Below the pieces are notes generated by a model that saw nothing but the letters and a program-made list of their open reading frames with translations, was not told the DNA's origin and did no database searches. 29,458 nt of DNA from a virus: positions 1 to 29,458 of IMG/VR virus record IMGVR_UViG_3300049812_004677; one strand, written 5' to 3'. The position numbers and the translations under genes were made by a program. Positions 1-29,351 of this stretch are shown in pieces; the stretch's first letter is position 1; each line of letters begins with the position of its first letter.

Positions 1-1008
1 AGCTTCGCGCTCGAAATGCTCAACGCCATGCTGACCGGCGACGATGATGATGGCGAGAGCTTCTACGACAAGATTCCCGATTACGAGAAGAGCCGCAATC
101 TGATCGTGATGATGCCGGGCACGTCCGAGTATGTGAAGATCCCGCTTCCCTACGGCTACAACGTGTTCTTCGTGGCCGGTCGATCGGGCGCGGAAATGCT
201 GCGCCGTGGCGGGGATCGCTGGCAGGAGACGATGGGTAACTTCGCAATGTCCGTCGCGGACTCGTTCAACCCGATCGGCGGCGCGGAAAGCCTGCTTAAC
301 CTGATCTCGCCCACCGTGGTCGATCCGATCGTGGACCTGTATCAGAACGAGGATTTTGCGGGCAATCCGATCATGCCGGAGCAGGCGCCTTACGACAGCC
401 CGGTTCCCGATTCCCAGCGCTATTGGGGAAGCGTCGGCCCGCACTGGAAAGCCATCACCGACTTCCTATCGAGCGCGACCGGGGGCGACGGGATCACCGA
501 AGGCGCAATCGAGGTTTCGCCGGAAACGCTGGAGTATCTGGCGGGCGTGGTGGTAGGTGCGGCTGGCTCGACCATCGACCGGCTTGCGGGTTTGGCTGGC
601 AAGACAATGGACCCGACCACCGACGTGGAAATGAACGACGTGATCTTCGCCCGCAAGCTCGTCGGACAAAAGCCCGGCTGGTACGACAAGAGCGTCTATT
701 ACGATCGCCAGGGCACCGTGGATCTGCACATTGACCGAACGAAAGACTATCTCGCCGCCGAGAACGTCGACGCCGCGCGCGCCTACGCGCAGAAGCACCG
801 GGCGATCATTTCGTTGGAGGGTATCTCGAAGGTCGCGTCTCGCGATATGCGCGATCTCCGCAAGGCGAAGCGCGCGATCGAGCATGAGTACGAGCTGGAG
901 CGCATCACGAAAGAGCAGCGCAACGAGCAGTACGATCGGATCTCGGAAATGGAGGGCCGGGTAATTCTCGCTTTCAACACTGCATGGAATGAGGCTATGG
1001 AGCGCTAA
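1..1008 (+). CDS. C-terminal part of a large phage polyvalent/internal virion protein (LPD38-like)
   Basis: The frame is open from the first base, so the N-terminus lies outside the window; 335 residues are visible. The stretch around residues 30-60 (NLIVMMPG, YVKIPLPYGYN) resembles the LPD38 domain found near the C-terminus of very large phage polyvalent proteins, which can be injected with the DNA or sit inside the virion. A glycine/alanine-rich helix follows near residues 180-200 (GVVVGAAGS), then a charged helical C-terminus (about 240-335) that could form a coiled coil. The TAA overlaps the ATG of the next gene. The LPD38 assignment is from memory of the family pattern and is moderately sure. 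The role in the virion is inferred from the family. Confidence 0.7.
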   Translation, partial: SFALEMLNAMLTGDDDDGESFYDKIPDYEKSRNLIVMMPGTSEYVKIPLPYGYNVFFVAGRSGAEMLRRGGDRWQETMGNFAMSVADSFNPIGGAESLLNLISPTVVDPIVDLYQNEDFAGNPIMPEQAPYDSPVPDSQRYWGSVGPHWKAITDFLSSATGGDGITEGAIEVSPETLEYLAGVVVGAAGSTIDRLAGLAGKTMDPTTDVEMNDVIFARKLVGQKPGWYDKSVYYDRQGTVDLHIDRTKDYLAAENVDAARAYAQKHRAIISLEGISKVASRDMRDLRKAKRAIEHEYELERITKEQRNEQYDRISEMEGRVILAFNTAWNEAMER

Positions 1009-1737: not shown

Positions 1738-2574
1738 CTATTTCTGGTCCGCGCGCTCTGCCGCGGTCTTGTTCTGATCGTGCCAAGTCGTGCCCGGCTC
1801 GGCATAGTTGTAGGCGAGGAACCCGCGCTTTTCGGGCGAGAGATTCTTGAAGTACACCTGATATGCGTCGACGCCATCCAGGGCGACTTGTCGAGCCTCT
1901 TCCGTCAGCTCTTGCCATACCGGCTGGAGCTGATCGAACGTCACGCCGCCGCGCCCGTCGTCGTCCTCGCCCTCTTCGATGATGTTGAGGATCGCTTTGC
2001 CGGAGTGGCGCTTGCCGTAGCTGGCCGCTGATCCTGCGCCCTGCGTTGCGTTCTTCGATCCGGTTGTGTCGACCGAAAGGGGCATCCACCCGCCGCGCTC
2101 CTCGAAAGCGAGATCGCCATCCGAATACGATAGCACCGGCTGAACCGTGACCATCGGCCCCTCCTGGCCGATATTGAACGTCAGGACGAGATTGTGCTTG
2201 GCGAGGATCGGGCGCGTCACCCGGTCAATGTCCTCCCATTTCGAGTAGCGCGATTGCACAGTCCCCTGCTTGTTGAGGATCGCTCCCTTCTTCGAGATAG
2301 AGGGCATTTCGAGCAGGGCATTGTGCTTCGCCATGCGGAACCGGCGCTCTGCCTCGCGGTCCTGCATCTGCATCGCGAGGTTGGCGAGCGCGGTGGTCTT
2401 GCCTGCGTCAACCGATGGATCGCGGCTGGCGCTCACAATGTCGCGCAGCATATTCATCGAGTCCTGGTGCATCGAGCTGGCCGCAACTTCGCGCCCCTCT
2501 GCCACCGCGACTGCATTGCCCTGTTCGGTCTCAATCGTTTGCGCTTCTCCGCGCGTCTGCTGTTCAGTTTCCAT
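1738..2574 (-). CDS. erf: Erf-family single-strand DNA annealing protein
   Basis: A 278-residue recombinase of the Erf superfamily, which binds single-stranded DNA and anneals complementary strands during phage recombination. Erf-type features: a conserved block near residues 95-120 (KGAILNKQGTVQSRYSKWEDID), HNLVLTFN near 128, and the diagnostic region GAGSAASYGKRHSGKAILNI near 188-208, followed by an acidic patch (EEGEDDDG). The C-terminal third is variable, as in the family. The start chosen at 2574 has a GGAAGGCA box upstream; another in-frame ATG at 2589 would add five residues. The gene overlaps the end of the HNH-AP2 gene by 11 bp. With the RecE-like exonuclease it forms a two-component recombination system. 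Confidence 0.85.
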   Translation of the reverse strand: METEQQTRGEAQTIETEQGNAVAVAEGREVAASSMHQDSMNMLRDIVSASRDPSVDAGKTTALANLAMQMQDREAERRFRMAKHNALLEMPSISKKGAILNKQGTVQSRYSKWEDIDRVTRPILAKHNLVLTFNIGQEGPMVTVQPVLSYSDGDLAFEERGGWMPLSVDTTGSKNATQGAGSAASYGKRHSGKAILNIIEEGEDDDGRGGVTFDQLQPVWQELTEEARQVALDGVDAYQVYFKNLSPEKRGFLAYNYAEPGTTWHDQNKTAAERADQK

Positions 2575-3106
2575 GTTTCTGCCTTCCATGATTAGGGTGA
2601 TATTGCTTCATTTTTTCCGCCGCCGCGCGAGCCGCAGCCGCCTCTTCCAGTGTCTCAAACGTGCCTAGATGGACGGTCCCAATCTTTGCGCCCCACCGCC
2701 CCCCTTTCGGGTAAACGCCGATCCTTCCGCTGGTATTGTTCCGAGGGGTCTTTCTGTTCTTCGCATTATCCGAAGGGCCGGAGGCGTTCAGGTTTGCAAT
2801 CCTGTTGTTACTCCCGTCCCCGTCGTCATGGTCTATCTGTGGCGGAGGATTCTCCCCATAATAGATCATCCATGCGGCATGGTGCGCTTTGATCGGTGCC
2901 CCCTCGAACGTGCCCATCAAATAACCTGCGCCATTGGGACAGTTAAACGCGAGCTTGCCCGCGTGCGCGCCGTTGAAAATCGCCGCCTGCCGCTCTCTCG
3001 AATAGCGCCCATCCCTGAATGTTTCCGGTGCCCTGTGCTTCCACGTCAGAGCGCCGGTTTCAGGATCATAAGCGACCCGCGATTGCAAAAGCTCGATGAT
3101 ATTCAT
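2564..3106 (-). CDS. HNH endonuclease with AP2 DNA-binding domain (probable homing endonuclease)
   Basis: This 180-residue protein has an N-terminal domain common in phage HNH proteins (VAYDPETGALTWK). The HNH core follows: HHAAWMIYYG near residues 95-104, IDHDDGDGSNNRIANL near 110-125, then the SDNAKNRK motif. The C-terminus is an AP2-type DNA-binding domain (GVYPKGGRWGAKI, HLGTFETLEEAAAAR). This architecture is typical of free-standing homing endonucleases. It sits between the exonuclease and the annealing protein, genes normally adjacent, so it is probably a mobile insertion. An upstream in-frame ATG at 3169 would overlap the exonuclease end; 3106 is preferred because family members start close to this domain. 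Confidence 0.85.
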   Translation of the reverse strand: MNIIELLQSRVAYDPETGALTWKHRAPETFRDGRYSRERQAAIFNGAHAGKLAFNCPNGAGYLMGTFEGAPIKAHHAAWMIYYGENPPPQIDHDDGDGSNNRIANLNASGPSDNAKNRKTPRNNTSGRIGVYPKGGRWGAKIGTVHLGTFETLEEAAAARAAAEKMKQYHPNHGRQKHGN

Positions 3107-3128
3107 CCTGTGGCTCTCGCACAATATC

Positions 3129-4592
3129 TTATATCTCGCAAGCCGATGCTGGGATTTCTTCGTCCGCAATGGTGTAGCTGGGGCGAATGTCTAACCAAGG
3201 ATCGGTCCCGAACACCTCGGCGCAGGTGCGGAAGGTCCGCTTGGCGTGGGCGATAATGTCCTTCGTCACGAGGTCGGTATCGCCGCCGCGCGGGAACCAG
3301 ACGCCGCGCGTGATCGGCGCTGCGCCCTTCTGCTGAAACACCCAGAGCCATTTGTCCGGTTCCTCGTGCTTCGCCCAATGGGTCGCGAACGCGAGCTGTT
3401 CGTCACGGTCGCCGGAGCAGGTGAACACCGCTTCCGCGCCCTGCTGGCGCACCAGCCCGCGCACGATCTCGGCCCCCTCGAAATAGACAACCGGCTGGAG
3501 GTTGTATTTGTAGGCCGCGATCTCGAACCGGATAGCGTTCTCGATGCTGCGCTCGCGCTGATTGCCGACGCTCTTGAGGTCGACCATCTTGTCGATCTGC
3601 ATATAGTCGACGCGCGCCTTCATCGGCACGCCGGTCTGGGGGCAATTCCATATCAGCGTGACCTCTGGGAAACCGTTGCGGAACGCCTCGCGCAATTCAG
3701 GATCGGCCTCGACCATCTTCGCGGCGATCTCCAGTTCCTCGAATTGGTCGATCGTGAGGAAGGTTTTGCCTTCGTGCTGCGCGCGATGTTCGGCGTCGAT
3801 GTTGGCGAACACGGAAGCATCGGGGTCGAGCGCCATGAGCTGCGCGATCCAGTCAGCCTTGACCGCGCTGCGCTCGTAAGGTTCGCCATCCGGCCCATCG
3901 GGGTCCATCACCTTCGACACCGGCTTGACCGGAGCTGCTTCGCTGAATTGCCCGATCCTCTCTTTCAGTCCCGCCACGTCGATCTTCGATCCGTCAGCGA
4001 ATTGAGCGAACGGCTTTCCATCCTCGACCATCGCGTAAGGCAGCGGCAAGTTTGCCTTGCGGTGCAGATCGGCGAGCTGGTCAACAAGATCCGGCTTGTT
4101 CCCGCGCGGCGCCACCGGCTGTTCGACCTCGTGCGTGGCGATTGCCGCCTTGATCTGGTCGGTGGATTCGAGCGCGTCGGGATAGTCGGCAGGATCGAGC
4201 AGCACCGCGAACCGGCTGGCGAACGCTTCCGGCCCCTCCATGATCCGGCAATGATACGCCTTCCCCATCGTGAAATGCTCGCGCTCGCCCTTCTCCTTCG
4301 CCTCCGCGATCAGTTTCGCGCGGCGCTTCGACAGCCAGGGCGTTGCCGCCCAGAAGATCATCGGCGATGCGGCGAGCTTCTTGATGCCGCTGTTCGAGAG
4401 CGCGGGCAGCGCGTGGTAATCATCATCGGCCATGCCAAAATAGATGCCGGGCGCGGGAAGCCCTGGCGTTTCCGGCAGGGTGTCGACGTTCACGATCGAA
4501 ACGGTCGCCGCGTGCGGGGTCCAATCCGGGTCCATGATCTCGCCGACGTAACCGAAGCGCTCGCCCGCCTCGCTGGCATTTCCTTCATTCAT
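3129..4592 (-). CDS. RecE/exonuclease VIII-like PD-(D/E)XK nuclease
   Basis: A 487-residue protein of the RecE-like, PDDEXK (DUF3799-type) group. These degrade double-stranded DNA from the 5' end to expose a single strand for the annealing protein. The domain opens with YHALPALSNSGIKKLAASP near residues 38-56, the usual substrate-binding start. The nuclease core lies near 325-340 with RVDYM and MVDLKS (the D...DxK catalytic pattern), followed by YKYNLQPVVYFEG with its conserved aromatic and glutamine residues. The start at 4592 is backed by an AGGAGT box. An earlier in-frame start at 4634 lies inside the upstream gene and has no such support. It pairs with the Erf protein downstream. Confidence 0.85.
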   Translation of the reverse strand: MNEGNASEAGERFGYVGEIMDPDWTPHAATVSIVNVDTLPETPGLPAPGIYFGMADDDYHALPALSNSGIKKLAASPMIFWAATPWLSKRRAKLIAEAKEKGEREHFTMGKAYHCRIMEGPEAFASRFAVLLDPADYPDALESTDQIKAAIATHEVEQPVAPRGNKPDLVDQLADLHRKANLPLPYAMVEDGKPFAQFADGSKIDVAGLKERIGQFSEAAPVKPVSKVMDPDGPDGEPYERSAVKADWIAQLMALDPDASVFANIDAEHRAQHEGKTFLTIDQFEELEIAAKMVEADPELREAFRNGFPEVTLIWNCPQTGVPMKARVDYMQIDKMVDLKSVGNQRERSIENAIRFEIAAYKYNLQPVVYFEGAEIVRGLVRQQGAEAVFTCSGDRDEQLAFATHWAKHEEPDKWLWVFQQKGAAPITRGVWFPRGGDTDLVTKDIIAHAKRTFRTCAEVFGTDPWLDIRPSYTIADEEIPASACEI

Positions 4593-6984: not shown

Positions 6985-7541
6985 CGAAGCGCGCCGCTGG
7001 CAAGTTCGAGCGGAACGATCGGGACTTTTACCGGACGCCGCGCAGGCCAATCCTGCCTCTTCTGCCGCACCTGTCGCCGGGCACCGTGTTTATCGAACCC
7101 TGCGCGGGTGATGGCGCGCTGGTGAAGGTGCTGGAGAGCGAAGGGCATTTCTGCGCACGCGCGTTCGACATTGAACCCCAAGCGGAAGGCATACGCGAGG
7201 GCGATGCGACCACCTGCCGAGACGATAGCGCGGATTTCTACATCACGAATCCACCTTGGAAGGTCGAGCTGCTGCATCCGATTATCTGGAACCTGACGCG
7301 CAGTCTGCCGACGTGGCTCCTGTTCGATGCCGATTGGGCACACACCTTGCAGGCTTCCGGCCTTCGCAACGTCAAGGGGTTCGGTCAGCGCGATCTGCTG
7401 TCGCATTGCTCGCTGATCGTGAGCGTGGGCCGGGTGAAGTGGATCGAGGGCAGCGACAACCAGGGCTTCGACAATGCCGCGTGGTATCTGTTTCACCGCG
7501 ATGCCGGGCGCGGCCCCATATTTATCGGAAGGAAAAAGTAA
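6981..7541 (+). CDS. SAM-dependent DNA adenine methyltransferase-like protein
   Basis: A 186-residue protein with the two key motifs of an amino-methyltransferase. Motif I is FIEPCAGDGALV near residues 37-48 (SAM binding). Motif IV is NPPW near 89-92 (catalytic, typical of N6-adenine or N4-cytosine methylation). The start, DFYRTPRRPILPLLPHL, is typical of phage DNA methyltransferases of this short type. No separate target-recognition domain is visible, so the sequence specificity cannot be read. It may protect phage DNA from host restriction. The frame continues by overlap into the DUF1376/HNH gene. Confidence 0.8.
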   Translation: MTKRAAGKFERNDRDFYRTPRRPILPLLPHLSPGTVFIEPCAGDGALVKVLESEGHFCARAFDIEPQAEGIREGDATTCRDDSADFYITNPPWKVELLHPIIWNLTRSLPTWLLFDADWAHTLQASGLRNVKGFGQRDLLSHCSLIVSVGRVKWIEGSDNQGFDNAAWYLFHRDAGRGPIFIGRKK

Positions 7542-8035
7542 TGGGCTATCGCTGGAAAAGCGTTCGCTTCTACCCAGAGGACTGGCGAGCCGAGACGCGC
7601 GACTTGTCCCGGCTGGAGAAGGATCTTCTCTTTGAGATTTGCGTGACCAACTGGCGAACAGGTCGACCGATGGTTCTAGCGGAGCTTGTGTGGACGGTGG
7701 ACGATCAGTTTGCGCTAGGAGCTTTGGTCGCATCAGGGCGCGTCGTCCGCTCGGAAGCCGGGCTTTGGGCGCGTGTGTGCGACACGATGAAAAACCGAAC
7801 ATCGTATGGGAGATTGCCGAAACTGGCATGGGCGGCGATCCGCAAACGCATATTCGCCCGCGATGATTACACATGCCAGTATTGCGGGAGACGTGGTGGG
7901 CCGCTCGAATGCGACCACCGGACTCCTTTGAGCCAAGGAGGCGGCAACGAGGAAAGCAATCTCGTTACAGCCTGCCGCCCATGCAATCGCACAAAATGGG
8001 CCAGGACTCCCGAGCAGATGGGATGGGAAGTATGA
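7541..8035 (+). CDS. DUF1376-like N-terminus joined to HNH endonuclease
   Basis: A 164-residue two-part protein. Residues 1-85 (RFYPEDWRAETRDLSRLEKD, FEICVTNW) resemble the DUF1376 domain of phage replication proteins and are clearly related to the start of the next gene (FYMDDWSAGT, FQICTYNW). Residues 95-164 are an HNH nuclease: RKRIFARDDYTCQYCGRRG, LECDHRTPLSQGG, NLVTACRPCNRTK. The usual replication C-terminus is missing. A likely origin is duplication of the DUF1376 segment with capture by a mobile HNH gene. It overlaps both neighbours by one to four bases. The HNH part is firm; the DUF1376 relation is inferred from shared positions. Confidence 0.8.
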   Translation: MGYRWKSVRFYPEDWRAETRDLSRLEKDLLFEICVTNWRTGRPMVLAELVWTVDDQFALGALVASGRVVRSEAGLWARVCDTMKNRTSYGRLPKLAWAAIRKRIFARDDYTCQYCGRRGGPLECDHRTPLSQGGGNEESNLVTACRPCNRTKWARTPEQMGWEV

Positions 8036-9460: not shown

Positions 9461-9934
9461 ATGGACGTTGAAGCAGTAATTCGCGAATGGATGGGGGCGA
9501 CCCGGCGCGCGAGGCAGATGAACCGCGCTGAAAAGCCGGAGCTTCCCGCGATGGACCGCGAGCAGGCCGAGGCGGCGCGTGAAGAGATCCGCATTCTCTA
9601 TTACGGCAGTGTGTGGGGCAGGCAGGTGTCGCGATCGGCGATGTTCGCTGTTGAGGTGGCTGAGCTGCGTCACGCTACCGAACGCGGCCAGAAGCCGGGC
9701 AAGAAGCAGGCGCTTCGCGACAGGATCATCGAGCGGGACGGTTCGGATTGCTGGCTGTGTCAGCAGCCGCTCGATGGCGATGCCACGTTCGAGCATAAGA
9801 CTCCGCGATCGGCAGGCGGTACGTGGCACATCGACAATCTCGCCTTGGCGCACACCCAATGCAATCGCGACCTTGGCCGCTTGCCGGAGAAGGCGAAGGA
9901 AGCCGCTCGCGCGGCTATTGCGGGAGATCGGTGA
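9461..9934 (+). CDS. HNH endonuclease
   Basis: A 157-residue protein with a helical N-terminal half (about residues 1-85) and a compact HNH nuclease at the C-terminus: RDRIIERDGSDCWLCQQPL (about 86-104), then ATFEHKTPRSAGGTWHIDNLALAH with the catalytic E-H pair and asparagine, and CNRDLG. The CxxC...C arrangement binds a structural zinc. The N-terminal helix resembles small phage HNH proteins encoded near replication genes. A GGAAGGCA box and a second AAGGAGG sequence lie upstream. The ATG of the next gene overlaps its TGA. It could be a homing endonuclease or a phage DNA-processing nuclease. Confidence 0.8.
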   Translation: MDVEAVIREWMGATRRARQMNRAEKPELPAMDREQAEAAREEIRILYYGSVWGRQVSRSAMFAVEVAELRHATERGQKPGKKQALRDRIIERDGSDCWLCQQPLDGDATFEHKTPRSAGGTWHIDNLALAHTQCNRDLGRLPEKAKEAARAAIAGDR

Positions 9935-14035: not shown

Positions 14036-14658
14036 GCGCCCGGCGCCGCCCGATGCCTCCAGCGGCCATCCTCGACGCGCTGACGGGTGTGTTCGAGCCT
14101 GCGCCGGAGCTGGAGGCGTGGGCGCGCTCGTCGTTCATTGCTGACACCGGCCAGCTCGCGAACCCGGATCACCGCCATCTGCAACAGGCAGAGATCGGCT
14201 TCCTATGGACGAACGAGGAAAACAGCCGGGCGGGGCGCACCGTGATCGGGCAATGCGAGATCATGCCGCCGATGGCGATGGGGAAGTGGCAACGTGCCCG
14301 CGCCATCGCCCAGGTGTCGGCATGGTTCGGCGGCGTGCCTGACTTTCTCATTACGATCGATGCGCAGGCGGCGCAGGCGATGGACGATATGAGTTTCTGC
14401 GCGCTGATAGAACACGAGCTGTCCCATGCGGGACAGGCGATCGACGAATTTGGAATGCCAAAATTCAACAAACGGACGGGTTTGCCGGTCTGGGCCATTA
14501 AGGCGCACGAGGTCGAAGAGTTTGTTGGCGTGGTTAAACGCTACGGCTCGACAAGCCCCGCTCTTTCTGAAATGGTCAGGGCAATTAACCACGGCCCGGA
14601 GGTCGGCGCGGCTCAAGTTGCGCAGGCTTGTGGCACTTGCCTGCGGAGAATTGCGTGA
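14032..14658 (+). CDS. Putative phage metallopeptidase (HELSH type)
   Basis: A 208-residue protein of the phage metallopeptidase type. A helical N-terminus is followed by beta strands (VPDFLITIDAQAA, about residues 99-111) and the zinc motif IEHELSHAGQ (about 125-134), an HExxH variant in which two histidines and the glutamate would form the active site. Two later histidines or acidic residues (AHEVEEFVGVV) could give the third ligand. The region before the motif has the conserved strand-helix pattern of family members (YDMSFCALIEHELSH-like). The substrate is unknown. It starts by ATGA overlap and couples to a GTG-started HNH gene. Confidence 0.75.
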   Translation: MSARRRPMPPAAILDALTGVFEPAPELEAWARSSFIADTGQLANPDHRHLQQAEIGFLWTNEENSRAGRTVIGQCEIMPPMAMGKWQRARAIAQVSAWFGGVPDFLITIDAQAAQAMDDMSFCALIEHELSHAGQAIDEFGMPKFNKRTGLPVWAIKAHEVEEFVGVVKRYGSTSPALSEMVRAINHGPEVGAAQVAQACGTCLRRIA

Positions 14659-15143
14659 CGGAAGAATGGAAATTCGTGAAGGGGTGGCCTGAATACGAAG
14701 TCAGCAACCTTGGTCGTGTGCGCCGCACAGAAACAGGCGCGATCCGAAAGCCGGTGAACATTTCTGGCTATCAAGCGATGCGGCTTACCCGCCCAGGCAA
14801 AAGCCAAATGATTTTGGTGCATCGCGCTGTCGCCTTCGCTTTTCTTCCTCGCCGACGCAGCAAAGCGATGGAGGTAAACCACAAGGATTCGGACCGATGG
14901 AACCCGCGAGCGGATAACCTTGAGTGGGTGACGAGATCACAAAACCGACAGCATGGGTACGATCACGGATATTGCGATGCGCGAGGGTCTAGAAACGGCC
15001 ACGCGAAATTGATCGAAGCAGATGCGATACAGATACGGTCGGCTGCGAAGGGCGAATATCCAGCTCTGGCAGAGAGATTGGGTGTATCGCTTGCGACAGT
15101 ACGAGACGTGGCCGCTCGCCGAACGTGGAAACACGTCGCATAA
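14655..15143 (+). CDS. NUMOD4-HNH homing endonuclease
   Basis: A 162-residue protein of the phage homing-endonuclease type. It opens with NUMOD4 (EEWKFVKGWPEYEVSNLGRV, about residues 3-22). The HNH_3 core follows: LVHRAVAFAFLP, MEVNHKDSDRWNPRADNLEWV (about 75-95) and SRNGHAKL. The C-terminus (IQIRSAAKGEYPALAERLGVSLATVRDVA) is a helix-turn-helix of the NUMOD1/IENR type. The GTG start is used because it overlaps the metallopeptidase stop (GTGA). GC looks lower than the neighbours, consistent with mobility. It may have interrupted an older operon here, since a 62-base gap follows. Confidence 0.85.
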   Translation: MTEEWKFVKGWPEYEVSNLGRVRRTETGAIRKPVNISGYQAMRLTRPGKSQMILVHRAVAFAFLPRRRSKAMEVNHKDSDRWNPRADNLEWVTRSQNRQHGYDHGYCDARGSRNGHAKLIEADAIQIRSAAKGEYPALAERLGVSLATVRDVAARRTWKHVA

Positions 15144-18229: not shown

Positions 18230-18295
18230 CGAACCCGAATGGATCGTGCCAGAAGAGGCGCGTTTCTGCCCTATCACTGGAAGCTACGGAAAATC

Positions 18296-18820
18296 ATGGC
18301 TGAATTAACTGACCCCCAGAAACGTGAGATTGTGGAGGCATTGGCGTGCTTCACGGAACCGGCAGCGATCATCACTTACTTCCAGACCGAACACGAGCTG
18401 GATCTCGACCACAAACAGGTGGGCCGATACGATCCAACGCGGTCCTACTATGCGGCGGGCGACCGATGGCGCGAGGTCTTCGATGCGCGGCGCAAGGCAT
18501 ATCTCGAAGACGTGCAGGCTGTCCCGATCGCGAACCAAGGCTATCGCCTCCAGCTCTTGCAGGAAGGGATCGAGGCGGCGCGGAAGGCGCGGAATTGGGG
18601 TATGGTGGCGAGCCTGTCGAAGCAGGCGGCAGAAGAGGTCGGCGGCGTACTGACCAATCAGCGCAATGTGGCGATTGACGATAAGCGCAAGCAGGCGATC
18701 CGCGATATGACCCCGGAAGACCGGAAGCTGGCGCTGGCCGAGATCGTGCGGCGCGCGCAGGAGCAGCTACTCGCGACCGATCCGCCCGGCACCAGCGAAG
18801 GGAGCGCCGCGGTTCAATGA
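18296..18820 (+). CDS. terS: DUF2280 small terminase subunit
   Basis: A 174-residue protein that fits the DUF2280 pattern: KREIVEALACFTEPAAIITYF near residues 9-29, HKQVGRYDPTRSYYAAGDRW near 40-59, and AEEVGGVLTNQRNVAI near 117-132. It should recognise phage DNA to start packaging with the large terminase. ATG 18296 gives the common family start (MAEL); an earlier in-frame ATG at 18239 has no clear need. It is 2.1 kb from the large-terminase ATPase half, with small genes between, an unusual separation. The next gene starts in its stop (ATGA). Confidence 0.8.
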   Translation: MAELTDPQKREIVEALACFTEPAAIITYFQTEHELDLDHKQVGRYDPTRSYYAAGDRWREVFDARRKAYLEDVQAVPIANQGYRLQLLQEGIEAARKARNWGMVASLSKQAAEEVGGVLTNQRNVAIDDKRKQAIRDMTPEDRKLALAEIVRRAQEQLLATDPPGTSEGSAAVQ

Positions 18821-20945: not shown

Positions 20946-20970
20946 CGTCGCTGTGGTGATAGATAGCGCC

Positions 20971-21834
20971 ATGCTTCTCGACCCCATAGCCAGAATGATC
21001 GACACCATGGGCCTGCGCCATGCTTCGCCGGAGCTGGTGGCCGCGATGTTCGATGATGAAGCCGCGATCGAAATGCTGGAGCAATTCGAGGTCGAGCGCG
21101 AGGAAGAGCGGTTCGGCAAGTTTGGGCACCTGTTCCCCGATATGGACGCCTGCGAGAGCATCGACGCAGAGGGTAAGCGCTTTCATTCCGTCGGCGAGTT
21201 TCGCTTCTACGCCCGCGACTATTACCAGAAGCACCTTGAGTTTTTCCGCCAAGGCGCGAGCTTCCGCGCTCGATGCCTCATGGCCGCGAACCGCGTCGGC
21301 AAGACCTTCTCGGCAGGCGGGTACGAAATGGCCTGCCACCTGACCGGCGATTATCCGCATTGGTGGCCGGGCAAGCGCTTCCGCCATCCGATCCGGGCCT
21401 GGGCCTGCGGCAAGACCAACGAGACAACGCGCGACATTGTGCAGACCACGCTTCTCGGTGACGTGGAGTATCAGGGCGCCCGCAAGCTCGTGGACGGTTC
21501 GGGTGTGATCCCGCGCGAGCGCATCGGCACCGACGCCGGGCAGCTCACATGGAAGGCGGGTGTCGCAGATCTCGTGGACACGATCCGAGTCCGCCACATA
21601 TCGGGGGGCTGGTCGAAGCTGGGCTTGAAATCCTACCAGCAGGGACGCGGGAGCTTCGAGGGCACCGCAGTTCATGTGATCTGGGACGACGAGGAACCAC
21701 CAATGGAAGTTTATGGTGAGCAGATCATCCGTACCGCGACCACGAAAGGGATTCTGATGCTCACCTTCACGCCGCTCGAAGGTATGTCCGAAGTGGTGCA
21801 GCAATTCCTCCCGGCAAACGACTTCCAGCAATGA
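20971..21834 (+). CDS. terL: Large terminase, N-terminal ATPase half (split gene)
   Basis: A 287-residue protein corresponding to only the ATPase half of a large terminase, the motor that packages DNA into the capsid. The Walker A motif is AANRVGKT (residues 105-112). Walker B is VIWDDE (236-241). The coupling motif is TFTPLEG (265-271). It then stops at PANDFQQ, where a full-length protein would continue into a nuclease domain. That nuclease half lies at 28578, some 6.7 kb downstream. ATG 20971 is preferred over GTG starts at 20953 and 20956. No frameshift is seen: the end is an ordinary stop that overlaps a small downstream ORF (ATGA). Confidence 0.9.
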   Translation: MLLDPIARMIDTMGLRHASPELVAAMFDDEAAIEMLEQFEVEREEERFGKFGHLFPDMDACESIDAEGKRFHSVGEFRFYARDYYQKHLEFFRQGASFRARCLMAANRVGKTFSAGGYEMACHLTGDYPHWWPGKRFRHPIRAWACGKTNETTRDIVQTTLLGDVEYQGARKLVDGSGVIPRERIGTDAGQLTWKAGVADLVDTIRVRHISGGWSKLGLKSYQQGRGSFEGTAVHVIWDDEEPPMEVYGEQIIRTATTKGILMLTFTPLEGMSEVVQQFLPANDFQQ

Positions 21835-21914
21835 GCCGCCTCCTTGCGGTTCGCGGGGTCTGCCGGTATGCGATCAGGTGTCAGACTGAAACCGAAACGA
21901 AGGCTATCCGCTAA
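21831..21914 (+). CDS. Tiny ORF coupled to both neighbours
   Basis: A 27-codon ORF starts in the stop of the terminase ATPase gene (ATGA) and stops in the start of the next gene (TAATG). Its product is basic at the start (MSRLLAVRGVCRYAIRCQ). Exact overlaps at both ends support translation, perhaps to couple the terminase half to the fibre cassette. It may be a remnant of a longer gene. Confidence 0.45.
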   Translation: MSRLLAVRGVCRYAIRCQTETETKAIR

Positions 21915-22318
21915 TGGCATTCCAGTTCTCTACCGCGTCTCGCAATGCTGCGCTCGACGCCATCGAAACGGCAATCGGGACCGGCGCGGTCTTGAAGATT
22001 CGCTCTGGTGCCCTTCCGGCTTCCGCAGGCGCTGCCGATAGCGGGACGGTTCTCGCCACCCTCAACTTGCCGAGCGATTGGCTTGCTAACGCCTCTGGTG
22101 GCAGCAAGGCTAAGTCAGGCACTTGGGAGGACACCAGCGCCGACGCCCAGGGCGCGGCGGGGCACTTTCGCGTCTATGCGTCCGATGGCACCTGCCACAT
22201 TCAGGGCACGATCACCGTAACCGATGGCGGCGGCGATATGACGGTCGACAACACGAACATCGCGGCAGGGCAGTCGATCAGCGTGACCGCGTTTACGATC
22301 ACCGCTGGCGGGGCGTAA
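21914..22318 (+). CDS. Structural-type hypothetical protein before the tail fibre
   Basis: A 134-residue protein without charged catalytic motifs. It has an N-terminal helix (TASRNAALDAIETAIGTGAVLKI) and then beta-rich Gly/Ser/Thr sequence (AADSGTVLATLNLP, ITVTDGGGDMTVDNTNI, SISVTAFTITAGG). Such proteins are common next to tail-fibre genes in phages with glycine-rich fibres and are likely virion components. It lies 12 bases from the fibre gene. The family name is not recognised. Confidence 0.65.
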   Translation: MAFQFSTASRNAALDAIETAIGTGAVLKIRSGALPASAGAADSGTVLATLNLPSDWLANASGGSKAKSGTWEDTSADAQGAAGHFRVYASDGTCHIQGTITVTDGGGDMTVDNTNIAAGQSISVTAFTITAGGA

Positions 22319-22330
22319 CGTCTCTCTCTG

Positions 22331-25300
22331 ATGGCGATCACTACCGCCTTCCTGAAAGCCGGAACGACTAGCTGGACGGTTCCTGCAGGCGTTTCGAGCG
22401 TCACGGTGCACTGCACAGGCGCGGGCGGGAATGGCTTTGCTCCCACGAATGGCTCCGGCGGTGGCGGTGGCGGTGGCGAGTATGCTCGCAAGGATGCGCT
22501 GGCGGTTACACCGGGCAGCACAATCACCTGCCAAGTCGCGTCAGGTAATTCTGGCGCGGACACATGGTTTTCGTCCGTTTCTACGGTGCTGGCCCGCGCT
22601 GGCGCAGAGGGTGCGTCAGACGCGCTCAACGGTGCACCTGGAGGCGCGGTTGGCGTTGGCGATTTTGTGCGAGCGGGCGGTGATGGTGGCATCGGTAGCG
22701 GTGGCGCGGGGTCTGGCCCAGGCGGTGGCGGCGGTGCTGCGGGGCCTAATGGTGCTGGTGCGCGCGGCGGCGACAAGAACAATTCTGGCGGTGGCGGGGG
22801 CGGTGCCAACGGCGGAAGTGCCGGGCAGACGCCCGCCAATGGTGGTACTGGTGGAGCAGGCGGCAATAATCGCCTCGGACAAGGCGGTGGTGTCGGTGGG
22901 ACATCGACCATCATACCTGGAGATGGTGTCAACGGTGGTGGTGGAGGCGGAACGCGCGGAGCGGCGACCGATTCGGTCAGGAACGGCGGCAATGGTTCGA
23001 CCGACACCATCTGGACCGACAACAGTGGCGGGCCGAATAACAACCAAACGGCAGGCCCTGGGTCTGGCGGTGGGGGTAGCGCCGCGACGAGTGCGACGGT
23101 TCCGTATCGAGGCGGGCACGGCGGGACTTACGGCGGCGGCGGCGGTGGAACGCGCAACACCGGCAGCGGCCTGCAATTACCCGGTCTGGGCGGTGATGGC
23201 CTCATTGTCCTGCAATACGAAGCCGGGGCAGGCGGGAACACGATCACTGGCACCGCAGCGGGCACCATGCCCCTTGCCGGATCAGGTCAGGCCATCGCGA
23301 TCAACCGGGCAAGTGGAACCGGCTCGCTCGCCCTGACCGGCTCGTCAGCGGCGAAACTGCCTATCGCTGCAAGCAGTAGCGGCTCACTCGCCCTAGCCGG
23401 TTCATCAAACACCGCGGTGCTGACCCATGCCAGCGCAAGCGGTGATCTACCGCTGACGGGTAGCGCCGCAACCATTTCGGACAACACCGCCAACGTAGCA
23501 GGTGCGCTCGACCTGACCGGCAAAGCGACTTCATCGGTATCAGTAAACGCGGCCAGCTCTGGTGCGCTCGAATTGAGCGGAGCGGGTTCGATCGCCACTG
23601 TTGCCCTGGCTCTCCATGCCGAAGCAAACGGGCTGCTCGTTCTGGCCGGTTCAGCCAACGTGCGGAACAAGCCTCGCGCGGGGTCGCCGGGTGCCCCTCT
23701 CCCCGTCAGGCGGCAAGCCCCTGCGAAGGGGCGCATCCCAGCTAATTCACCCGGCGAAATGAAATTCACGGTTCGGGACACGCCGCCGATCCGCACGCAA
23801 AAGCTGGAGCTGTTGCGTCAGGCTCTATCGGTGACGGTGCTGGACGATGTTCTGCCGTCGACCACGATCACCAATCACGGACAGGACGAGGGGCCGCTGA
23901 CGCCCCTGTCCATTCCGCGCATCGACATTGGCAAGGTGGTGGAGACGAGCGAAGGCTCGACGCTCCAGCTATCCGAGGCTGTCCCGCTGGTAACGGTCGC
24001 ATGGCAGGCGATCGGCGACGGGCAATCGTACACGGCGGAATGGCGCGCGCGCGTGACCGAGAGCGTGGAAGATCCGGTGTCTCTCGACACGGCCATGTTC
24101 ATCTATTCGGCCACCGGCATCTATCTTGGGGAGTATGCTCGAACAGTCCAAGATGACACTTGGGAAGAGAGCGACGGGTGGCTTATCGCAACGACAGCGG
24201 CCAGCGCCGCCGATATTCGCAAGGCATTCCCTCGCGCCGCCTATGTCCGCGCCGCCCTGATCCCAGAAGGCGGAGAGGCTACGAAGCAGGTCGCGCGGGG
24301 GCGCGTGTTCAACGCCAGCACGAGCGGCGGGGCGGAAGCATTCGCAGAGCTGGCGCGCGTGCGCGCCGAAGCGGCAGAGGTCGCCCGGCTTGCGGCAGAG
24401 GGAGCGGCCAGTGCCGCCCAAATCGCACAGGCGATCATCGAGCTGGCAGAGGCGAACACCAACGCGGCGCTTGCACTCGCCCAGGGAGCGCGTGATGCCG
24501 CCCGCGATGCAGAGGCGTCGGCGATCGACCAGGCCCTTGCCGCAGCAAATTCCGCATCGGTCGGCGCCGGGTACGCGCAGACCACAATCACGAAGGCCGA
24601 CGAAGCGGCTGGTTCGGCTTCGATCGCCACCGCCCAAGCTCTTGTCGCGCAGGGGCATTCGGATGAAGCGGGCACGAGAGCTATCGCAGCCGCGACCAGC
24701 GCCGATGCCGCCGAGATCTCGAACACCGAAGCGGCCAGCTCTGCCAGCGCCGCGCAGCTCGATCGAGTGGCGGCGGAGTCCGCGCGCGAGGAAGCCGACA
24801 CATTCGCATCTGCCGCTGCGCTCCACGAGCAGACAGCGGGCACTTACGCCACCGATGCAGAGAGCTTTGCCGGAGCCGCGCAGGTCAGCCAGACTAACGC
24901 CGCGACCAGCGCAGGAGAGGCATCCGACAGCGCCGGGGCTGCTTCGACCTCGGCAGGACAGGCCAGCACGAGCGAGAGCAACGCAGCGGGAAGCGCGGCC
25001 ACCGCCAGCGAGCAAGCCGGGCTTGCAGCCACCGCGCGCAATGCAGCCGGGGAAAGTGCCAGCGCATCGGCTGACAGCGCATCGGTCGCCACCGCGCAGG
25101 CTGATGCAGCCGGGCAATCCGCTCTCGCCGCCAACGCCAGCAAGATTGCCGCCAATACGGCGCGTAGTGGCGCGGAGGCAGCGCAAGCCATCACGGTTTC
25201 GGCGCGCGACACCGCCCTGGGAGCAGAAGCGTCCGCCGTGTCGGCAAGTCAGCTCGCAGTCTCAAGCTCGACCCGATCCAAGTCCAACATTCAAACCTAC

Positions 25301-27688
25301 GGGATGACGCCGAACGCGACGTTCGTGGACTCCATGGATAGCTGGTCCCTGACAAACGGATCGCGAATTGTCGGCTCGGCAGAATATGGCGTTCGTGCCC
25401 GGCTATTGGCGCAAGGTGAGCTGCAATCCCTTCATCGGCACCCGGTCAATCCGAACCGCGTTTATGAGGTCAAGGCCAACTATAACATTCTGAACCAGCC
25501 GCAGGAATCGCTGATCGGCTTGGCCTGCTTCGATGTGGCTGGAACCCTTTTGGGCCGAATTTACGCCCCCTCACTTGGCGGTCAAAGAGCGCCGGGCGCA
25601 TATCAGGTTTCGCAGGTATTCACAGGGACAGCCAACCAGCCGACGTTCTTTGGCGATTCCACCAAATTCATCATCGGAACCGCAACGGTCCAGCCGATTT
25701 TCATCGGCAATCGCAACTCCGTCAGCGGAGGGATTACCGATGTCCGCTGGGTGTACCTCGATGACGTAACCGAGCGTGTGCTTTCAGAAGCCGCAGCCAG
25801 CATTGCGGAAACAGCTCGTATCAGCGCTTCGCAGGATGCGGCTGCGGCAGAGGCATCGCGCGTCCTCGCGGCAGCGGCCAAAACCGAGGCCGAAAACGCA
25901 AGCGGTGACGCGGCAGGGTTCGCAGCAACGGCATCCAACGCCGCGTCAGACTCGGCCAGCGCGAAAACGCAGGCAGAGGGCGCGGCATCAATAGCTACGA
26001 GCCAGAAGGAGCTTGCCGTCAGCGCACGCGGAAGCGCAGAGGCGGCGAGAGACACGGCACTCGGCTATCGAGACACAACGCTTGGCTATCGTGACGCTGC
26101 GAACCAGCACCGCGCGGAAGCCGCTCTGTCCGCCAGCCAGGCCGCTACGTCGAAGGTCGATGCGGAATCCGCAGAAGCGGTCGCGATCTCGAACGCCCAA
26201 CTATCCGCCGCGGTCAACGGCGCGCGAGGCGGCTATCAGGTTCATTTTCAGCGCGATGGGCTACTGGCGACCCGGCAATATACAGCCAATCTTTCGGTCG
26301 ATGTAGCTCCCGTTCTGCCGGGCAACGGTGTCTCGTTCTATAACGATCAGGGATATGGAAGGGCCATCCTGCAAAGCGCCGCCGCAGACTACATTCGCGC
26401 TCGTCAATATATCCCGATCCGAGCGGGCGCGATTTACAGAATAAGGGGCACGCTTTCCGGTTCGTCGGATTCCACCGGCAGCAGCCGGATAGGGCTTGCC
26501 TGCTACAATGCGGGCGGCAGCTACGCAGGTTTTTATAGCGGTGTGTTCGTGCAATCCGCGAATACTAGTGGGCCGTTCCAAACCTACGAGTTCACGGTGA
26601 CAGCCGGGGAGATCCGCGGAGCGATCGGGAACGCCGATTACATCGCGCTCGCATGGGCGTTCAATATTGGGGGCGCCGGTTCGACGGCTTTTGCGCTTGG
26701 CGAGATCGAGGAAATCTCCGCCCTGAAAAGTCTTGAGGCGAGCGTAACGGTCAATCAGGCGGCAGTGGCGACATTGCAGTCAGCGTCCGCTCTGTATGAA
26801 GTGATCGTCGCCGCCAGCGGCTCAAACCCGGCGATGGTGCAGCTATTGGCCGGGCTGGGCGGCTCCAAAGTAGGCATTGTTGCCGACACGTTCGCGGTCG
26901 GGAACAAGATCGACGGCATCATCAAAGAGGTCATTCGCGTTCGTAATGGGCAAGCGGAGATTGAGAGCGCGTTGATCCGAAAGTTGCTTGTTCCGCCGCG
27001 CGCAGACTCCGCGATCAATATGCTGGTCGAGCTGGCGCCTATCATCGTGAGCGGTAGTCATGGGCAGACGATCGACTATCAGGGCGGCGCCAGCTTTGGG
27101 TCCGCGCCGTTGCGCATCGAGCCGGTGCTGGAGGATTTACCTGCTCTTGCAACGGGCGAGAAATGGACGATCTCAACGCAAAAATTTGGTAGCGGGTTCA
27201 TTCCGTCTGTGACCAAGACCGGCCCTGGCAGCTATACGTCGCATAACGCAGGCAATTCGCGTTCCCAGGCTGGCACGCCTCAGTACGTAGCCGATAAGAC
27301 TCAAGCCGAACCCTCATATAATCGTCGATATGTGTTCTCGACGCTGGTGGGTGCCGCGGTTACGCAGACCGTTGAAGAGGGGATCAACCGCTATCGCTAT
27401 CGCGCGGAAGGGACGCTCTACGCATGGGTCGGCGGGACGCTAACGGCGGTCGGAAGCTATAACGCAGAGTGGCAGAGCGATGGTGCGCCGGTCAGCGCAA
27501 GCCGCACCATTACCACGCTGGTTGATGTGGGAGCCGACCTTGGCGCTAGAAGCCCTATGTTCGGCGCGCATCCGACCGTAGGATCGCTGGGATCACTGGC
27601 TGTGTCGTGGGAAACGTCCACGGCAGGCGCGCCGGTTGTGGTGAACGACACGATTCGCTGGAGGGTCTATGCGCCCGCCCGCACGTAA
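22331..27688 (+). CDS. Giant modular tail fibre / host-specificity protein
   Basis: A 1785-residue protein with clear modules. Residues 1-300 are a glycine-rich domain (runs of Gly, N-terminal LKAGTTSWTVPAGVSSV as in phage Gly-rich fibre starts). Residues 307-445 hold about seven repeats of 20 residues built on G.L.LTGSA. A folded domain covers about 450-660. An alanine/serine/glutamate-rich helical stalk covers 667-987. A first jelly-roll-like domain is at 987-1153 (FVDSMDSWSLTNGSRI), then a second stalk to 1295, a second similar domain to 1470, and a C-terminal region to 1785. It should bind the host surface. It has no close ribosome-binding site but follows 12 bases after the upstream stop. 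Confidence 0.85.
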   Translation: MAITTAFLKAGTTSWTVPAGVSSVTVHCTGAGGNGFAPTNGSGGGGGGGEYARKDALAVTPGSTITCQVASGNSGADTWFSSVSTVLARAGAEGASDALNGAPGGAVGVGDFVRAGGDGGIGSGGAGSGPGGGGGAAGPNGAGARGGDKNNSGGGGGGANGGSAGQTPANGGTGGAGGNNRLGQGGGVGGTSTIIPGDGVNGGGGGGTRGAATDSVRNGGNGSTDTIWTDNSGGPNNNQTAGPGSGGGGSAATSATVPYRGGHGGTYGGGGGGTRNTGSGLQLPGLGGDGLIVLQYEAGAGGNTITGTAAGTMPLAGSGQAIAINRASGTGSLALTGSSAAKLPIAASSSGSLALAGSSNTAVLTHASASGDLPLTGSAATISDNTANVAGALDLTGKATSSVSVNAASSGALELSGAGSIATVALALHAEANGLLVLAGSANVRNKPRAGSPGAPLPVRRQAPAKGRIPANSPGEMKFTVRDTPPIRTQKLELLRQALSVTVLDDVLPSTTITNHGQDEGPLTPLSIPRIDIGKVVETSEGSTLQLSEAVPLVTVAWQAIGDGQSYTAEWRARVTESVEDPVSLDTAMFIYSATGIYLGEYARTVQDDTWEESDGWLIATTAASAADIRKAFPRAAYVRAALIPEGGEATKQVARGRVFNASTSGGAEAFAELARVRAEAAEVARLAAEGAASAAQIAQAIIELAEANTNAALALAQGARDAARDAEASAIDQALAAANSASVGAGYAQTTITKADEAAGSASIATAQALVAQGHSDEAGTRAIAAATSADAAEISNTEAASSASAAQLDRVAAESAREEADTFASAAALHEQTAGTYATDAESFAGAAQVSQTNAATSAGEASDSAGAASTSAGQASTSESNAAGSAATASEQAGLAATARNAAGESASASADSASVATAQADAAGQSALAANASKIAANTARSGAEAAQAITVSARDTALGAEASAVSASQLAVSSSTRSKSNIQTYGMTPNATFVDSMDSWSLTNGSRIVGSAEYGVRARLLAQGELQSLHRHPVNPNRVYEVKANYNILNQPQESLIGLACFDVAGTLLGRIYAPSLGGQRAPGAYQVSQVFTGTANQPTFFGDSTKFIIGTATVQPIFIGNRNSVSGGITDVRWVYLDDVTERVLSEAAASIAETARISASQDAAAAEASRVLAAAAKTEAENASGDAAGFAATASNAASDSASAKTQAEGAASIATSQKELAVSARGSAEAARDTALGYRDTTLGYRDAANQHRAEAALSASQAATSKVDAESAEAVAISNAQLSAAVNGARGGYQVHFQRDGLLATRQYTANLSVDVAPVLPGNGVSFYNDQGYGRAILQSAAADYIRARQYIPIRAGAIYRIRGTLSGSSDSTGSSRIGLACYNAGGSYAGFYSGVFVQSANTSGPFQTYEFTVTAGEIRGAIGNADYIALAWAFNIGGAGSTAFALGEIEEISALKSLEASVTVNQAAVATLQSASALYEVIVAASGSNPAMVQLLAGLGGSKVGIVADTFAVGNKIDGIIKEVIRVRNGQAEIESALIRKLLVPPRADSAINMLVELAPIIVSGSHGQTIDYQGGASFGSAPLRIEPVLEDLPALATGEKWTISTQKFGSGFIPSVTKTGPGSYTSHNAGNSRSQAGTPQYVADKTQAEPSYNRRYVFSTLVGAAVTQTVEEGINRYRYRAEGTLYAWVGGTLTAVGSYNAEWQSDGAPVSASRTITTLVDVGADLGARSPMFGAHPTVGSLGSLAVSWETSTAGAPVVVNDTIRWRVYAPART

Positions 27689-27720
27689 GGTAATCAGAGC
27701 CGCCACAAAGGAGACAACCG

Positions 27721-28029
27721 ATGGCCGAGACGAAAATCACGGACAAAGAAGCCGCCGCGATGCGGGAAAAGCTCGCCAAATACGACGCGGAGAAAGCCGC
27801 GGAGCGCGAGGCCGCGCGCATTGAAGCGCTCAAGCCTGTCATCGCGTTCACCGAAACCGATGCGTTCAAGGAGGTCGCCGAGAAAATTGGCGAACTGGCC
27901 GACAGCGCGAAGGACACTCAGGCGTACCCGCATTTGAATTGCATCCGGGTGGGTGTCGCGAACCTCCCGGCAGCAATCACCGAGGCAAACCCGACCACTC
28001 AAACCGACCCCACCCCTCCCACGAGCTGA
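27721..28029 (+). CDS. Small protein after the tail fibre (possible fibre partner)
   Basis: A 102-residue protein with AAAGGAGA before the start. Residues 1-70 are a highly charged helix (TDKEAAAMREKLAKYDAEKAAEREAAR), likely a coiled coil; the end is proline/threonine-rich (NPTTQTDPTPPT). Genes right after fibres often encode assembly helpers, so a chaperone role is possible. No family is recognised. It ends close to the HNH gene. Confidence 0.6.
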   Translation: MAETKITDKEAAAMREKLAKYDAEKAAEREAARIEALKPVIAFTETDAFKEVAEKIGELADSAKDTQAYPHLNCIRVGVANLPAAITEANPTTQTDPTPPTS

Positions 28030-28041
28030 TCCTTGCCGGGC

Positions 28042-28590
28042 ATGGATCATTGGCATCGACTCGATCGCGAAAAGGTCTGCATATCCTGCGGGCAGGGGAA
28101 ACCTTTGTCTGCATTCTACTCCTACGGATACACCACCACGCAGGGGAAGCGCAGCACGCGATATGAAAGTCGATGCCAGCCATGCGCGCGAGCAAGGCGC
28201 AAGGCGCAGTATCATGCCGATCCGGTAAAGGCAGGGGCCATCAACAAGGCATGGAAGGATGCCAACAAGCAGCGGATAGCTGCCTATAATCGTGAGAGGC
28301 AGGCAGACCCCGATCATCGCGCGCTGAAAGCAAAAAGCCAGCGCCTGCGGAAAGCGCGGATGCGTAGCGGCGAAGGGGATAATGATGCCATCCGAGCAAT
28401 CTACGCAGAAGCTATGCGCGTGGAAAAACTTGTCGCGGATTGCCCTGTTTTCAATATTCCCGAACTGGGTCACAAAATGCACGTCGATCATATTCGCCCG
28501 CTTTCAAAAGGCGGAAGGCACCACGAAAATAATCTGCAAATTTTGCCTATTGGTCTGAATATGAGAAAGGGCGTGAAATGCCCGGCATAA
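28042..28590 (+). CDS. HNH endonuclease at the terminase split
   Basis: A 182-residue free-standing HNH protein. The N-terminal zinc part has VCISCGQGKPLSAFY (about residues 13-27) and CQPCARARRKAQYH (about 46-60). A basic helical region follows. The HNH core is MHVDHIRPLSKGGRHHENN (about 151-169), then LNMRKG near the end. ATG 28042 is used; an in-frame TTG at 28033 is weak. The 3' end overlaps the terminase nuclease half by 13 bp. Its location exactly where the terminase gene is broken points to a homing endonuclease that inserted there. Base composition is lower in GC than the fibre. Confidence 0.85.
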   Translation: MDHWHRLDREKVCISCGQGKPLSAFYSYGYTTTQGKRSTRYESRCQPCARARRKAQYHADPVKAGAINKAWKDANKQRIAAYNRERQADPDHRALKAKSQRLRKARMRSGEGDNDAIRAIYAEAMRVEKLVADCPVFNIPELGHKMHVDHIRPLSKGGRHHENNLQILPIGLNMRKGVKCPA

Positions 28591-29351
28591 TTGATCCCAC
28601 AAAGAACACCCCCAAAAGCAGGGTTCTGATTACTGCCGGTTGGGATAGCGTCCCACATCTAGACTCACAGGCCAAAGCGGAGCTTCTTGAGGAAACGCCG
28701 GAGTGGTTGCGTGATGCCCGATCGAAAGGGATTCCCAGCCTGGGCGCCGGGGCGATCTATCCGATTCCCGAAGAGCGTATCCGCGTCGATCCATTCCCGA
28801 TCCCCGATCACTGGCCCCGCGCCTATGCGCTCGATGTGGGCTGGAATTGGACCGCCGTTCTCTGGTGCGCCTGGGATCGAGACAACAGCATCAAATATAT
28901 CTACGGCGAGTACCTTGCCGGTGAAGCGCTCCCCACCACACATGCAGCGGCCATCAAGGCGCGCGGCCCATGGATCCCCGGCCTGATCGACCCGGCTGCG
29001 AATAATCGCGGGCAGCGTGATGGCGAGCGCCTGATGGCGGATTATCAGGAAGCCGATCTCGATCTGACCAAAGCCGACAATTCGGTCGAGGCCGGGCTGG
29101 TGAAGTGCTGGCGCGATCTCTCGATCGGGCGCACCAAGATCTTCTCGACGCTGCAAAACTTCTACGCCGAGTATCGCCTGTATCGCCGGAACGAGAAGGG
29201 CGTGATCGTGAAGAAGAAGGATCACTTGATGGACTGTATGCGCTATCTCCATAATTCGGGCGCCGAGATTGCGTCGATTAAACCCGCGATCGAGAATGGC
29301 CCCAGCCTCTTCGCCAATCTGCCAACCGATAGCCGACAGGGATCGTACTGA
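28578..29351 (+). CDS. terL: Large terminase, C-terminal nuclease half (split gene)
   Basis: A 257-residue protein holding the RNase H-like nuclease half of a large terminase, which cuts phage DNA at the start and end of packaging. The short start (MPGIIDPTKNTPKSRV) leads into WDSVPHL (22-28) and RDARSKGIPSLGAGAIYP (45-62), linker features of this terminase group. Probable catalytic acids are Asp86 (ALDVGW), Asp138 (LIDPAANN) and Asp215/Asp219 (KDHLMDCMRYL). No Walker motif is present. With the ATPase half (287 residues) the total is 544, normal for a large terminase. It starts within the HNH gene and its stop overlaps the next gene (TGATG). Confidence 0.9.
   Translation: MPGIIDPTKNTPKSRVLITAGWDSVPHLDSQAKAELLEETPEWLRDARSKGIPSLGAGAIYPIPEERIRVDPFPIPDHWPRAYALDVGWNWTAVLWCAWDRDNSIKYIYGEYLAGEALPTTHAAAIKARGPWIPGLIDPAANNRGQRDGERLMADYQEADLDLTKADNSVEAGLVKCWRDLSIGRTKIFSTLQNFYAEYRLYRRNEKGVIVKKKDHLMDCMRYLHNSGAEIASIKPAIENGPSLFANLPTDSRQGSY

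Follow-up and report, generated by a model that had tools for sequence, protein, structure and literature searches.

A large terminase encoded by two separate genes

The 29,458-bp virus contig IMGVR_UViG_3300049812_004677 (hereafter the window, meaning the whole of this linear and probably partial record) encodes its large terminase subunit (TerL) as two proteins, the products of terN (20953..21834) and terC (28578..29351), which lie on the plus strand 6,743 bp apart with four other genes between them. We consider it probable that this two-gene TerL arose by fission, that its halves reassemble non-covalently, and that the intervening genes were inserted after the split; that the halves are expressed, assemble together, and are active, and that events came in this order, we infer from the comparisons described below.

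Between them, the two products supply the parts of a tailed-phage TerL. The first, TerN, is the ASCE (P-loop) core of the ATPase, with Walker A (AANRVGKT), Walker B (VIWDDEE), and motif III (TFTP) sequences and matches to PF03237 (Terminase_6N, E 1.9e-13) and phrog_31467; its best-matching PHROG is annotated 'unknown function', and we assigned it to the N-terminal Walker A/B ATPase of TerL from PF03237, the invariant residues K117, D246, and E247, and its match to TerL folds. The second, TerC (257 aa; phrog_5653 and phrog_2, terminase large subunit), comprises the lid subdomain and an RNase H-fold nuclease with its catalytic acids. An initial sequence-only reading of the window had described an ATPase-half open reading frame (ORF) bearing these motifs and a stop codon, and a nuclease-half ORF with its own start, and both are present. 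Its combined length of 544 aa holds if TerN begins at the internal ATG at 20971 (287 aa, plus 257 aa for TerC); the GTG at 20953 gives a TerN of 293 aa. The alignment to an intact TerL that it had suggested as a check gave a clean tiling: in a tblastn search, residues 1-198 of the intact protein of locus L019 matched 21181-21816 and residues 199-430 matched 28584-29282, the two matches abutting exactly. Because the two domains are carried by two ORFs 6743 bp apart and not by a single polypeptide, we regard the pair as TerL by homology and by its parts, not as a single-chain TerL. No second terminase match was found within the 29.5-kb record, itself linear and probably partial.

Recurrence of the split and selection on both halves

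Using each half as a query, as well as alignments of the two, we scanned IMG/VR and GTDB genomes and collected 305 loci that contain both halves, 173 of them as one ORF and 132 as two ORFs split at the same place. These loci form a best-hit-ranked sample enriched for relatives, in which a few duplicate one contig, and the proportions do not represent natural frequencies; L043, which looked split, is probably a frameshifted intact gene and was counted as not split in the junction analysis and all later counts. Split loci occur in named-strain assemblies, some of them as prophages, including Azospirillum (L193-L195), Sphingopyxis flava (L204), Novosphingobium (L230), and Metarhizobium (L192), and also in Acidovorax (L234, L235, L242, L238), Halomonas, Litchfieldella, Chromohalobacter, Roseomonas, Acetobacter, and others. 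The complete circular phage record MW202785 has two neighbouring coding sequences, each called 'large terminase protein', and is the sole split case among the named phages inspected, with a one-ORF TerL found in MW202478, MW202738, and MT192033. Since the same split, which the sequence-only reading had proposed to look for in related genomes, recurs in 132 of the 305 sampled loci, named strains included, the arrangement is not explained by a single contig that was misassembled or has decayed.

Judged from substitution patterns, both halves are under purifying selection and are not remnants. Estimates of dN/dS by the Nei-Gojobori method for eleven pairs, some with dS values near saturation, were mostly 0.04-0.25 in both halves with a maximum of 0.43, in a set that includes Acidovorax-type pairs with gaps from 0.9 to 2.8 kb. 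Among 114 non-redundant split loci, K117, D246, and E247 of TerN and D86 of TerC are invariant (114/114). Four nuclease acids had been nominated from the window alone: D86 and D215 (110/114) stand up to this comparison, whereas D138 (91/114) and D219 (89/114) do not. Entropy in the split loci is 1.44 bits for the TerN core, 1.47 for the TerC lid, and 1.54 for the nuclease, and the lid is equally conserved in split and intact loci. In 20 records of 25-64 kb, for which completeness estimates are not given, we found a single terC-type match each and no additional terminase locus by PF03237.

Position of the break within the ATPase domain

The break is inside the ATPase domain, between the ASCE core and the lid, and the lid stays with the nuclease on TerC; the sequence-only reading had placed it between the ATPase and nuclease domains, which the structures contradict. 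In intact proteins, the distance from motif III (TFTP) to the tryptophan of 'AGWDDVPHL' has a median of 30 residues (range 24-71), and in split loci TerN ends 22 residues past the motif III proline, while TerC starts about 10 residues before the tryptophan. The AlphaFold2 model of TerN (pLDDT 89.5) has as its best solved matches the TerL ATPases of P74-26, D6E, T4, and Sf6 (Z 12-15), all of which came from the fold search; a profile search of the PDB with the terN alignment returned, by sequence, chance matches only. The structural alignment of TerN ends at residue 162 of Sf6 gp2, 186-189 of D6E, and 305-306 of T4, and the nuclease part of TerC begins at residue 210 of Sf6, 233 of D6E, 361 of T4, and 289 of P22. 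The match of TerC to the P22 nuclease 4DKW is strong both as a profile (E 9e-45) and as a structure (Z 25.7), and the 4DKW construct starts at TerC residue 54. In D6E, the linker to the nuclease spans residues 230-241 and the lid precedes it (PMC5727402). Because TerC residues 15-53 (28620..28736, plus strand; about 40 residues) fall between the TerN end and the nuclease start in these structures, and the D6E lid comes before the linker, we assign them to the lid subdomain. When TerC is folded alone, the prediction for its first 19 residues has low confidence, as would be expected if the partner were needed, an observation that is only suggestive.

Junction geometry and the order of events

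On a FastTree phylogeny of 263 loci, the split or one-ORF state needs to change 26 times, compared with a mean of 85 after shuffling, and the window falls within an all-split clade of 41 loci. An IQ-TREE phylogeny of 78 loci required 17 state changes, at least nine of them forced by branches with a Shimodaira-Hasegawa-like approximate likelihood ratio of 95% or more, and a single clade of all splits was rejected by the approximately unbiased test (p 5.5e-5, on a quick tree with partly long branches). The changes may be gains or losses. The one-ORF Cupriavidus loci L201 and L203 are nested among adjacent splits beside the split Herminiimonas locus L199, and L201 may represent a re-fusion of the two genes.

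The two genes overlap by as much as about 50 bp or stand as far as 8.8 kb apart (L326), with gaps of more than 90 bp in 62 non-redundant loci. In the 52 adjacent pairs, the commonest arrangement is a 4-nt overlap of ATGA/GTGA type (23 pairs), followed by overlaps of 8 nt (8 pairs) and 1 nt (7 pairs); many have the ATGA/TAATG form, and such short overlaps are the usual geometry of translational coupling. Alignment of one-ORF with split relatives revealed small frame-changing indels in the variable loop. Because so many adjacent pairs overlap as ATGA/TAATG, we favor fission by small indels as the first event, with HNH genes, fibre genes, and other cargo most likely inserted later. Nearly all predicted gap ORFs (160 of 165, picked mechanically) are on the same strand as the ter genes. 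Fibre-like genes are present in the gaps of L002 and L204 (PHROG tail fibre), and other gaps contain other large ORFs. The gaps of L116 (10961-18332) and L326 (1251-9983) each hold 11-14 predicted genes, about half of them common to both, including probable fibre genes of 1144 and 946 aa.

Proposed assembly and alternative explanations

In the mechanism we propose, fission would have occurred in the loop that separates motif III (TFTP) from the conserved, lid-opening 'KYLVQAGW', a variable stretch of about 30 residues where small indels would create an ATGA/TAATG stop-start junction and thereby the split. Both products would be made, TerN as the ASCE ATPase core and TerC as lid plus nuclease; when they are co-expressed, the lid of TerC would dock on the core of TerN and rebuild the ATPase site. 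A TerN-TerC pair at each motor position, the stoichiometry that we presume, would then restore the packaging ring on the portal. Once the genes were independent, their junction would tolerate insertion of HNH genes, small virion genes, and tail-fibre cassettes, whose accumulation would have produced the 6.7-kb insert of the window. Assembly of the halves in trans appears to be the most economical reading of the sequences. We also lean toward a broader view in which this is a natural two-polypeptide motor without a covalent link between core and lid-nuclease, made repeatedly by core/lid fission, with the junction serving as a landing site for fibre and mobile genes.

A possible but rather unlikely alternative is that an HNH homing endonuclease made the split by inserting into an intact terL, as has been suggested for Aeh1 nrdA, and that the ATGA pairs are later endonuclease losses. 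Nine of the 62 gaps do contain HNH-type genes from two families or, in one case, a remnant; such a gene is alone in the gaps of L164, L209, L301, and L313, the L007 gap retains a helix-turn-helix remnant of one, and relatives of the window's own HNH gene sit in the gaps of L020, L164, L209, and L249. Their density is higher in gaps (9 per 106 kb) than outside them (10 per 3.70 Mb), an enrichment that is overstated because the profiles were trained on seven gap copies, without which the counts are 2 in 106 kb and 10 in 3.70 Mb. The HNH genes of L209 and L020 also begin with a copy of the terC start, in L020 at the protein level (MSKYLVQAG) and more weakly in DNA; in the window's HNH gene, only a non-significant 10-bp match to the terC start was found. 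Against such an origin, endonucleases of the two types searched are absent from most gaps and from every adjacent split, and where the genes are adjacent, stop and start overlap canonically with no trace of an insert. Moreover, L209 and L164, whose gaps contain only an HNH gene, have adjacent splits as sister loci (L205 and L186, respectively). In L209, the 5′ end of the HNH gene is a copy of the terC 5′ end (none of 300 shuffles was as good), and the gene starts in an ATGA overlap with terN just as terC does in its sister group. Taken with L164 and L186, this evidence from L209 and L205 favors fission first and endonuclease second, so the analogy to Aeh1 nrdA drawn in the sequence-only reading is relevant, but the split seems older than the endonuclease where sister loci are informative.

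Other explanations fit less well. That TerN works on its own as a translocating ATPase like phi29 gp16, and TerC on its own as a maturation nuclease, without having to form a complex, is improbable: phi29-type motors do package with an ATPase that has a vestigial nuclease domain (PMC7672431), but TerN has no lid, the lid on TerC is conserved as much as the core, and the lid is a moving element of the motor in T4 and Sf6 models (PMC5727402). Joining of the halves after transcription or translation, by intron splicing or a split intein, is very improbable. The terL of ICP1 is spliced and has an adjoining homing endonuclease (PMC10448857), but an Rfam search of the whole window up to E 1 matched neither group I nor group II introns, at the junction or elsewhere, and gave only the suhB/mmgR RNA upstream of terN; an undescribed intron could escape such a match. 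There was also no Rfam intron match at gathering thresholds in seven relatives. In almost all split loci, the TerN stop and TerC's own start codon lie within the natural linker, and splicing would not need the 4-nt overlap of 23 of the 52 adjacent pairs. Intein halves need more than about 14 residues per side; the ends extend about 14 residues beyond the conserved domain, within natural linker length, and no intein parts are fused to either half. We give equally little credence to decayed remnants of a replaced terminase or a contig artefact, to which the partial, linear record might point; against this stand the purifying selection on each half, the invariance of catalytic residues in both, one TerL per record in the 20 longer records, and the same arrangement in named-strain assemblies such as Sphingopyxis flava L204, Azospirillum L193-L195, and Acidovorax L234/L235/L242 and in the complete circular record MW202785. 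For the group as a whole, the recurrence of the split and the selection on its halves led us to reject both misassembly and decay.

Fission followed by reassembly in trans and later insertion, the reading that we prefer, also has evidence weighing against it. When T4 gp17 was artificially cut into two fragments, likewise giving two polypeptides, at the linker between lid and nuclease, ATPase and nuclease activities were kept and translocation was lost (reviewed in PMC3012670). This result warns against assuming free trans-complementation, though the T4 cut sits elsewhere: the natural break falls about 50 residues further upstream and keeps the lid attached to the nuclease, and we hypothesize that this may explain viability. 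The order of fission and then HNH insertion is based on few informative sister pairs, the deep branches of the trees are partly unresolved, and in L020, L301/L313, and L326 the endonuclease itself could be the splitter. For the window phage, an intact TerL copy outside the partial record is still conceivable in strict terms.

Other genes in the insert and its neighborhood

All four genes in the window's gap are on the plus strand. A 134-aa virion structural-type protein (21914..22318; phrog_3758, head and packaging, E 8e-35) is followed by a 1785-aa probable tail fibre or tail-tip protein (22331..27688; phrog_4474, unknown function, E 1e-11), whose C-terminal part matches Phage_Tail_Tip weakly (PF09327, E 2.5e-4, just below the curated cut-off) and which has a homologue in a 519-aa gene of the L005 gap. 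Next come a 102-aa protein (27721..28029) with no convincing family match in Pfam or PHROG and an HNH/endonuclease VII-like gene of the homing-endonuclease type (28033..28590; PF01844, phrog_1035), the last codons of which overlap the terC start. The fibre-like gene had been recognized in the sequence-only reading, which did not report the HNH gene abutting terC.

Five further HNH or HNH-like genes, of NUMOD4-HNH_3, HNH, and HNH_3 types, are located at 14628-15143, 7256-8035, and 9461-9934 on the plus strand and at 1169-1567 (weak) and 2564-3169 on the minus strand. Directly upstream of terN is a full-model match to the suhB/mmgR small RNA (RF00519; 20877-20950, plus strand, 42.8 bits, E 8.6e-6), for which no match was found at the gathering threshold in seven relatives, and just before it a Tad2-like domain (Thoeris anti-defence 2-like, PF11195; 20067-20819, plus strand). 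A DUF2280 protein (18239-18820, plus strand), about 2.1 kb before terN, is possibly the terminase small subunit; its homologues lie 3-7 kb upstream of terN in L003, L004, L006, and L007, and the packaging module therefore seems spread out. The window also encodes a Dam-type DNA adenine methylase (PF05869; 17738-18229, plus strand) and, cut off by the contig end, a large polyvalent protein (LPD38; 1-1008, plus strand) represented by its C-terminal part.

Comparison with known systems and implications

Compared with single-chain TerL of the Terminase_6N and P22-Sf6-D6E-T4 kind, the split proteins have the same core, lid, and RNase H nuclease in the same order, with the same motifs and folds, but as two polypeptides broken between core and lid and encoded by genes up to 8.8 kb apart in our sample. 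Phage genes split in association with homing endonucleases include Aeh1 nrdA (mobE), T4 topoisomerase gene 60 (mobA), and gene 43A/43B of Aeromonas phages; Aeh1 nrdA has full activity as two proteins, and a review notes the possibility that the endonuclease entered a gene that had been split before (PMC2988022). As in those cases, an essential gene is present as two coding regions, and some loci, the window (28033-28590) among them, carry an HNH gene at the junction or close to it; in contrast, the product here is a packaging motor, the fission is repeated at one place, often without an endonuclease, and the cargo is large and structural. The products of the earlier cases have been shown or are thought to reassemble, which we infer here. 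ICP1 terL is likewise in two parts with a nearby homing endonuclease, although its parts are joined by RNA splicing (PMC10448857) and no intron was found here. In the wasp Campsomeris, the gene for a mitochondrial enzyme, cox2, has likewise undergone fission: its two parts encode complementary polypeptides and are separated by foreign ORFs and a putative nuclease gene, the first animal case according to its author (PMC5374615). Split essential phage genes and a spliced terL (ICP1) were thus known already; in the open-access literature searched, we found no description of a split terL without splicing, nor of one that arose repeatedly and has fibre cassettes at its junction.

TerL is a standard phage marker gene, and split halves may be missed or counted as short or unknown proteins. 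How ATP hydrolysis by TerL is converted to DNA movement is debated, with models based on interdomain electrostatic pull, lid movement, or a trans-arginine (PMC5727402). A family that tolerates a break just upstream of the T4 cut, with the engine on one chain and the lid on the other, indicates which link may be dispensable and offers ready material for a test.

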